DNA from: Halomarina pelagica
GTDB lineage: Archaea > Halobacteriota > Halobacteria > Halobacteriales > Haloarculaceae
Length of the DNA stretch: 64,000 nucleotides
Assembly (NCBI RefSeq): GCF_024228315.1
Contig: NZ_CP100454.1
Span: 2,108,001-2,172,000 of the forward strand
Direction: 5' to 3'
A program made the position numbers and the translations under genes. Below, in pieces: positions 21,897-43,757 of this stretch (position 1 is its first letter; the number at the start of each line of letters is the position of its first letter). The notes beneath the pieces are model-generated. The model did not search any database and was not told where the DNA came from. It worked only from the letters and a program-made list of their open reading frames with translations.

Positions 21897-21952
21897 CACC
21901 TTTTGCTGCGGTCGCTCGCTTCGCTCGCTCCCTGGCAAAAGCTGGATCAAAA
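21897..21952 (+). repeat. Hairpin module of the composite intergenic repeat, copy 1
   Basis: CCTTTTGC and GGCAAAAG bracket a CG-rich inner stem-loop, followed by CTGGATCAAAA. The same layout is found at 37304-37360 and, inverted, at 43951-44008, while the inner stem sequence differs. Here it follows the PiT stop codon directly, so it could serve as a 3'-UTR hairpin or terminator. Confidence 0.75.
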
Positions 21953-22068
21953 CCGCGCCTCACCCCCTCGCTTCGCTCGGGGGATTCGTCGCGTCCGCTC
22001 GTTCGCGCCTCTCGGCGCTCACTCGCGGGTGCTGCGCTGGTGCCGGCGGTGGTCAGGTCGTCCGTACC

Positions 22069-22187
22069 TTTATACCCGAGAGCGGGACCAGCGTCCGTGT
22101 GACCTGACGTCGGTCGCGGGGCGCTCGCGGGTGCGCGACGCCACGCCCCGCGAATCCATCCCTGCCGCGGCGTCGCCTGTCCGCCAC
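22069..22187 (+). ncRNA. Candidate small structured RNA with its own TATA box, copy 1
   Basis: TTTATA at 22069-22074 is followed by GAGCGGGACCAGCGTCCGTG, then a 10-bp perfect stem (22114-22123 with 22144-22153) enclosing 20 nt, then GCCGCGGCGTCGCCTGTCC near 22164-22182. Copy 2 (minus strand, 43644-43757) has the identical 40-nt stem-loop and flanks; copy 3 (37492-37600) keeps the TATA box, the GGGACCAG and the GTCGCCTGTCC but has a different stem. Transcription would start near 22096 and run antisense into the 3' end of the amidohydrolase gene. No coding potential is conserved between copies. Confidence 0.55.
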
Positions 22188-37241: not shown

Positions 37242-37303
37242 GGTCTCTCCCCGGGTGTCCCCTTACCGACCGCCGTAATAAAATCTCGGTAACACGTTCT
37301 CTC

Positions 37304-37360
37304 CCACCTTTTGCCGCGCTCGGCGGCGAAGCCGCCTCGCTGGCAAAAGCTGGACCAAAA
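37304..37360 (+). repeat. Hairpin module of the composite intergenic repeat, copy 3
   Basis: CCTTTTGC and GGCAAAAG flank a GGCGGCGAAGCCGCC stem, followed by CTGGACCAAAAG. Same frame of A/T-rich ends as copies at 21897 and 43951, with a different inner stem. Here there is no gene end upstream on the same strand: the nearest gene starts at 37241 on the other strand, so a terminator role alone does not explain it. Confidence 0.75.
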
Positions 37361-37491
37361 GCGCGGCGCGCTCCCTGCGGTCGCGCTTGCGGCCGCTCGC
37401 TCACTTCGTTCGTTCGCGGTCCGATTGCTCGGGTTAGCGGTGGAAGGGCGAGCCTCGCCGACGCCGAACTCGCCGTCTCCCTGACTGAATA

Positions 37492-37600
37492 TTTATATAC
37501 CGAAACGGGACCAGACCCCCCGTGCGCTGACCACCGCCCGCGGGCGGCCCGCGGTCGTGCGACACGACCGCTCGCGGACCGTAATCCGTGTCGCCTGTCC
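37492..37600 (+). ncRNA. Candidate small structured RNA with its own TATA box, copy 3
   Basis: TTTATATA (37492-37499) is followed by ACGGGACCAG, a CCGCGGGCGGCCCGCGG segment, an 8-bp perfect stem (37552-37559 with 37563-37570, loop CGA) and GTGTCGCCTGTCC ending at 37600. The stem differs in sequence from copies 1 and 2 but occupies the same place between the conserved blocks. It points antisense toward the 3' end of the 6-phosphogluconate dehydrogenase gene (stop at 37647). Confidence 0.5.
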
Positions 37601-37646
37601 ATCCACCGCGTGCCGCGGTCAGTAGCGGTAGCACTCCTCCGCGGGG

Positions 37647-43608: not shown

Positions 43609-43643
43609 CCCTACCGCGAGTAGCGCGATACCCGACAATGGCA

Positions 43644-43757
43644 AACAGGCGACGCCGCGGCGGGGGCTGTTCGCGGGGCGTGGCGTCGCGCACCCGCGAG
43701 CGCCCCGCGACGACTCTCACGTCACACGGACGCTGGTCCCGCTCCCGGATATAAAGA
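43644..43757 (-). ncRNA. Candidate small structured RNA with its own TATA box, copy 2
   Basis: On the minus strand a TATA-like ATCTTTATATCC (43748-43759) leads to GGGAGCGGGACCAGCGTCCG, then the 10-bp stem 43701-43710/43671-43680 with a 20-nt loop, then GCCGCGGCGTCGCCTGTT. The stem and loop are identical to copy 1 (22114-22153) and the flanks nearly so. It points antisense toward the 3' end of the M29 aminopeptidase gene (stop at 43608). Confidence 0.55.

Follow-up and report, generated by a model that had tools for sequence, protein, structure and literature searches.

In Haloferax volcanii, many small RNAs (sRNAs) are described as occupied by ribosomes without yielding a protein product, among them sRNA_61, which according to the accessible part of the report is 111 nt long, very abundant and without a product in Western blots or mass spectrometry (PMC12482152). 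An abundant intergenic sRNA of 111 nt also appears in the available text of earlier work (PMC5892119), and s194 and Hts4 are stated to be ribosome-bound in a third paper, likewise accessible in part, which describes s194 as conserved only in eight Haloferax species (PMC6104027). The RNA family presented here resembles these sRNAs (s194, Hts4 and IG1.7, PMC6104027; sRNA_60 and sRNA_61, PMC12482152), which, as far as the accessible text goes, are intergenic, possess a TATA box of their own, measure approximately 70-111 nt and in several cases were found with ribosomes while giving no protein. They differ in that they were described singly, without a family, a pseudoknot or a start-stop frame in those parts of the published text that are available. 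Any of s194, IG1.7, Hts4, sRNA_60 and sRNA_61 may be a member of the family, the available portions of these papers giving neither sequences nor flanking genes. The novelty therefore concerns the family and its architecture and not the existence of such transcripts; the family has apparently gone unrecognised, and a literature search for its tail sequence found none. It could provide a handle on the question why haloarchaea hold abundant ribosome-bound sRNAs that make no protein.

Separate parts of the architecture are familiar from other systems. The bar minigene of phage lambda reads AUG AUA stop and acts with this one fixed codon via peptidyl-tRNA drop-off. Like bar and other two-codon minigenes, the haloarchaeal RNA combines a start codon, one sense codon and a stop codon, and initiation and termination seem to matter rather than the product; unlike it, bar is not known to have a pseudoknot or to belong to a stand-alone multicopy RNA family, and it uses a single codon compared to the 22 found here. 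In start-stop elements and stalling upstream open reading frames (uORFs), a ribosome is held on a minimal 5' frame, as is proposed below, but the target of these elements is the main frame of the mRNA that carries them, whereas no coding frame follows in the haloarchaeal RNA. Readthrough and frameshift pseudoknots share the H-type fold 6-7 nt past a stop codon, within the spacing range that acts on the ribosome, but the haloarchaeal RNA has no continued frame and its loop lengths vary by non-multiples of three. The csRNAs of Streptococcus pneumoniae are likewise several paralogous sRNAs under one regulator-type promoter element, in a competence context, but they are bacterial base-pairing RNAs of unrelated sequence and structure, without a leaderless minigene. 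We know of no other case in which a leaderless start-stop frame is combined with a pseudoknot.

The window, i.e. the whole stretch of 64,000 nt of Halomarina pelagica DNA that was analysed, contains three segments that an earlier inspection of its letters (the sequence-only reading) had interpreted as copies of a promoter-driven structured RNA. All three exist, and R1, a covariance model of 27 copies from the own genus, sets their limits, promoter from the TATA box onward and RNA body included, at 22069-22185 on the + strand for copy 1 (117.9 bits, E 4e-24; also supported by BLAST within the own genome), at 43640-43755 on the - strand for copy 2, with its TATA box starting at 43755 (118.2 bits, E 3.5e-24), and at 37492-37603 on the + strand for the divergent copy 3 (87.5 bits, E 3e-17). 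The pattern TTYAW-N9-CGNGRCCA, with at most one mismatch, has 8 matches in the window compared to 0.6 expected, of which three are perfect and coincide with the three copies. In the absence of transcript data, we interpret the segments as three copies of a small RNA gene that stands alone and forms a family in haloarchaea, with a predicted RNA of approximately 80-90 nt.

In copy 1 (all features on the + strand), the TATA box TTTATA (22069-22074), an element conserved from index 28 in 141 copies outside the genus, is followed by the GRCCA box CGGGACCAG (22083-22091), a promoter element common to leaderless protein genes, and by the start-stop minigene GTG ACC TGA (22099-22107), recognised from the sequence and from family statistics and overlapped by a GTG TGA at 22097-22102. 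Covariation defines helix P1, formed by TCGCGGGGCG (22114-22123) and CGCCCCGCGA (22144-22153), and helix P2, whose 5' strand GCGACGCC (22135-22142) lies inside the P1 loop and whose 3' strand GGCGTCGC (22169-22176) directly precedes the conserved tail CTGTCCGCC (22177-22185), where conservation in a 3'-anchored profile stops. Copy 2 (- strand) has, on the same grounds, the minigene GTG ACG TGA (43717-43725) with an overlapping GTG TGA (43727-43722), P1 at 43710-43701 with 43680-43671, the P2 5' strand at 43689-43682 (P1 and its loop thus spanning 43671-43710), and the P2 3' strand at 43656-43649 followed by the tail (together 43640-43656). For copy 3 (+ strand) the corresponding features are GTG CGC TGA (37522-37530), P1 at 37537-37546 with 37568-37577 (overall 37537-37577), the P2 5' strand at 37559-37565, and the P2 3' strand at 37588-37594 followed by the tail (37588-37603). 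The common parts proposed in the sequence-only reading are real, copy 3 keeping the TATA box, CGGGACCAG and GTCGCCTGT around a different stem in the same position. The stem-loop of about 40 nt that copies 1 and 2 were said to share is indeed identical between them, but it is not a plain stem-loop: it is P1 of a pseudoknot, the loop of which pairs with the downstream GTCGCC. Neither this pseudoknot nor the start-stop minigene, the spread of the family across the Halobacteria or the presence of the GRCCA element before protein genes had been noticed in that reading.

The fold is an H-type pseudoknot in which the P1 loop pairs with a downstream block to form P2. P1 comprises 9-10 bp whose sequence varies freely between copies; its loop reads GCGGGWGYGC and then GCGACRC, which pairs with the downstream GYGTCGC. 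Loop L1 is mostly 12 nt long, and L2 measures 2 nt in 145 of 148 copies. In alignment A4, P1 and P2 together carry 107 double-sided changes compared to 27 after shuffling, a value that none of 500 shuffles reached, and versions of the helices slid along the alignment were paired in 30-49% of cells against 91% for the real ones. As A4 had helped to define the structure, the count was repeated on 106 copies from other genera that are not in A4. In these held-out copies, P1 was paired in 92.2% of cells (68.2% shuffled, maximum 71.0%) with 212 double changes (48 shuffled, maximum 65), and P2 in 93.9% (83.8% shuffled, maximum 85.3%) with 93 double changes (27 shuffled, maximum 39). Both pairing and the 305 double-sided changes in total exceed all 500 shuffles, in which relatedness between copies was not corrected for. 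Two interlocked helices with covariation, the definition of an H-type pseudoknot, are thus found in the held-out copies as well, and the alignments demonstrate that compensatory changes maintain the pseudoknot, as far as sequence comparison alone can do so. The sequence-only reading had inferred from three copies that structure is kept over sequence and had named random substitution without compensatory change as the outcome that would refute it; the held-out copies did not give that outcome. Among their cells, 87 G-U and 70 A-C combinations favour neither strand. The energies of single-sequence folds are unremarkable (z -0.6 to -1.4), the minimum free energy fold being computed without the pseudoknot. 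That this is a real structured RNA family we regard as practically certain.

Across aligned copies from other genera, conservation starts at the BRE (CGAA) and the TATA box (TTYAWAT), with nothing conserved upstream, and ends after CTGTTCGCC(A) or CTGTTCGCCA, with nothing conserved beyond in the 3'-anchored profile. The order of elements is BRE, TATA box, CGSGRCCA, start codon, stop codon, P1/P2 pseudoknot and tail, the CCA of the promoter element CGSGRCCA being 99-100% conserved in 141 copies. Promoter and RNA are kept together at unrelated loci while both flanks are unconserved, and we are highly confident that the family has its own promoter. A regular U-tract terminator was not seen, 15 of 141 copies being T-rich.

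Within the own genome, BLAST with copy 1 gave 41 matches and the covariance model R1 gave 55, every match of both searches falling on contig C1 (3.54 of the 4.6 Mb). C1 thus carries approximately one copy per 64 kb, and the other contigs (C2-C7, about 1.06 Mb together) hold none of the 55. Of 59 relatives, 37 were positive with R1. A second model, R2, built from 42 diverse copies, was positive in 259 of 391 genomes of the class, in 250 of 377 Halobacteria genomes of good quality and in 55 of the 86 genera sampled, with E-values down to 1e-22 in genera outside the training set. Although part of the R2 training set came from loci found through the promoter pattern, both the class-wide matches and the held-out counts are based on hits of the model and not on that pattern, and a per-genome copy number of nine in the class-wide R2 search stands for at least nine. 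A phylum-wide scan of 295 genomes gave 34 positives, all of the same order, and no match outside this order. Among the taxa whose members came from a promoter-pattern scan and were borne out by the model are Halegenticoccus, Haloferax marinum, Halobellus, Halorubrum vacuolatum, Haloprofundus and Natronomonas. In Rfam 15, only two tRNAs were found in the window at gathering level, and no match overlapped the element in four loci at E up to 5; the family would thus add a structured RNA class that occurs in most haloarchaeal genera and is absent from Rfam.

Such a copy number raises the possibility of a passive or mobile repeat (MITE, REP-like or SINE-like) whose palindromes are merely DNA hairpins. 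The approximately 40 closely related own-genome copies, which share flanking repeat sequence, do represent a real and recent expansion at the level of the genus. A passive repeat does not account for two interlocked helices with compensatory changes, nor for a promoter and a frame at fixed spacings, nor for loci that are kept: the tfb (TFIIB) neighbourhood is retained across species and genera (L037 in the own genus, L076, L084, L217), as is the hisF neighbourhood (L209, L212, L215, L226, L232), and two syntenic copies occur in 15 of 15 Haloferax genomes searched. The element's edges are the promoter and the RNA ends, which does not fit a MITE, REP or other transposon-derived repeat (target duplications were outside this test), and no link to a transposase was seen. 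Blastn against plasmids gave no match, viral contigs showed only partial 16-mer matches, and none of 51 tail-motif matches from a scan of IMG/VR had the remaining motif by regular expression; on these searches a viral or plasmid origin was rejected. We find a passive or mobile repeat scarcely credible, and the joint conservation of promoter and RNA at unrelated loci bears out, without transcript data, the preference of the sequence-only reading for a structured small-RNA family. In one genus (g6) there are almost always exactly five copies per genome, and this constancy suggests stable, non-mobile loci. Because of the two syntenic copies in Haloferax, a workable laboratory species is likely available.

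Adjoining many copies of the own genus are intergenic repeat units (TTTTGC...GCAAAA arms, CTGGAxCAAAACC) and a CGCGGGTGCCGCGCTGGCG block, located in the window at 21900-22060 and 37300-37430 and further at loci L001-L038. Units and block seem to have spread jointly with the RNA copies in the own genus.

Genes were called by a simple codon model with the window as its training set. All context-checked copies are intergenic, without overlap with a called gene, and the gap between two genes in other genera is often almost exactly the size of the element. The three window copies point in antisense orientation at the 3' end of the following gene, as had been pointed out, but in the family as a whole this is only a tendency, the downstream gene lying on the opposite strand in 81 copies, often ending 0-60 nt away, and on the same strand in 35. 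A start-stop frame followed by structure resembles a uORF leader, and the 35 same-strand cases would be compatible with a leader or attenuator that governs transcription or translation of the downstream gene through translation of the frame. The 81 opposite-strand cases and the lack of any relation between downstream genes or neighbours at different loci speak against it, and we hold such a role to be very improbable; a cis-acting leader or riboswitch is largely refuted by this orientation, there being no consistent co-directional gene. Conversely, the many copies located shortly beyond the 3' end of an opposite gene, together with helices that pair on both strands, could point to a function of the other strand as 3'-UTR structure or terminator of the converging gene. 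Against this, the oriented and conserved signals, from BRE, TATA box and GRCCA element to start and stop, all belong to the element's + strand, and 35 copies have no converging downstream gene, which makes an other-strand function highly unlikely in our view.

An ATG or GTG sits about 30 nt past the TATA box, at +30/31 from its first T in 183 of 198 copies, as is expected for a leaderless transcript (start approximately 30 nt after the TATA box), the transcription start sites being unmapped. This RTG is read as a start codon because the same promoter places the starts of leaderless protein genes at +29 to +31. A start codon, zero to two codons (usually one, rarely none or two) and a stop codon follow each other in 188 of 198 copies (186 read by script, plus L017 and L034 after correction of their coordinates), which satisfies the sequence criterion for a two-codon minigene if the zero- and two-codon variants are included, compared to 3 start-stop matches in total at shifted control positions in the same copies. 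The stop is TGA in 172, TAA in 12 and TAG in 2 of the script-read copies, TGG never taking its place. Conservation does not extend to the dipeptide, for 22 different second codons are in use. The length variants stay in frame; they read ATG TGA in three genera at the tfb locus (L076, L084, L217) and GTG CCG GAG TGA at L135. The claim that no reading frame is shared by the copies therefore holds for long frames and fails for this minimal one, which nearly all copies share at the predicted transcript start. The frame is absent in ten copies: L085 (TGC for the stop), L300 (ATC for the start) and L311-L318 (ATT CTG TGA), the last eight being a single locus in one Haloferax clade. This Haloferax locus B retains the in-frame stop behind its ATT and has an extra GC-rich insertion before the P2 3' strand; its function has possibly been lost or changed.

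The distance from stop to P1 is 6 nt in 105 of 133 copies and 7 nt in 25, and P1 begins 15-16 nt after the first base of the start codon. When initiation takes place on a start codon at the very 5' end, the ribosome extends approximately 15-16 nt downstream, the established toeprint distance, and since the P1 offset equals this reach, the pseudoknot would sit at the ribosome's leading edge. Judged from the aligned copies, the frame stands at a fixed distance both from the TATA box and from the pseudoknot, and it is very likely meaningful.

The explanation that we favour, with moderate confidence, is a small RNA family in which a leaderless start-stop minigene holds a ribosome against a pseudoknot, the RNA serving as a regulatory or trap RNA. 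By inference, the transcript would be leaderless with its 5' end at the start codon; a ribosome, for whose binding there are no data, would initiate at the RTG and meet the stop after one codon; it would be held with its leading edge against the pseudoknot, about 3 bp of P1 having to open before the stop codon could enter the A site; and the RNA would act as a ribosome-engaged regulator or trap. The held ribosome might serve as a decoy for leaderless initiation, as part of a ribosome-bound regulator or as protection of the RNA, with less translation of other leaderless mRNAs or carriage of the RNA to ribosomes as possible effects. That ribosome parking itself is the function we propose tentatively, at somewhat less than even credence.

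The conservation of L1 and the tail across the order can also be read as the mark of a base-pairing sRNA, in which the loop GCGGGWGYGC or the tail CTGTTCGCC pairs with mRNAs and the frame merely stabilises the RNA or stops ribosomes from unfolding it, a sensible safeguard on a leaderless transcript. Such an sRNA would not need the fixed spacing from stop to P1, and within the own genus the tail varies among CTGTCCGCC, CTGCACGCC and CTGTTCGCC, unlike a fixed seed. Pairing of tail or loop with 16S or 23S rRNA was tried and rejected, the longest matches of 10-12 nt including G-U being about at chance level by our own rough estimate. We consider a base-pairing sRNA unlikely, without dismissing it.

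The promoter of the family, consisting of a TATA box, 8-9 nt, CGSGRCCA, about 8 nt and RTG, also precedes protein genes. In the own genome it stands before a HerA-like ATPase gene and a divergent DUF7382-type gene (G000:C1:2174455-, 2174503+) and before a Cas4-like gene (G000:C1:867411-). A search of 99 genomes with a promoter pattern that excludes most RNA copies gave matches in 73, compared to only a handful for the reversed control, and 21 of 30 loci from this search have an open reading frame (ORF) of more than 60 aa starting at +29 to +31. The families behind the promoter comprise T2SSE ATPase, archaeal pilin, HerA/DUF87, Cas4-like and NucS_N with a topoisomerase zinc ribbon, and further DUF7283, DUF7310 and DUF7382. 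This gene set possibly resembles a DNA-uptake regulon, an inference for which the regulator is unidentified, and no paper describing the GRCCA promoter class or such a DNA-uptake-like set was found in the literature. From the common promoter we infer that the RNA family is co-regulated with these protein genes, and it could provide a handle on how the promoter class behind pilus-like, HerA, Cas4-like and NucS-like genes, plausibly a DNA-uptake set, is controlled. A wider proposal, that the RNAs are class-wide ribosome-parking decoys of up to 55 copies, sharing the GRCCA promoter with the pilus, HerA and nuclease set, with which cells entering that DNA-uptake-like state load their ribosomes, is speculative and in our judgement rather unlikely. 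Further GRCCA promoter sites lie at G000:C1:2530875+ and 527938- and at L132, L152, L165, L179, L187 and L404-L449, helicase-like genes being among those preceded. In three genomes of one genus (L407, L409, L411), a leaderless ORF of 48 aa with the end ...LSAGHxCxxIRLWAR stands behind the same promoter, possibly encoding a small protein or representing another leader.
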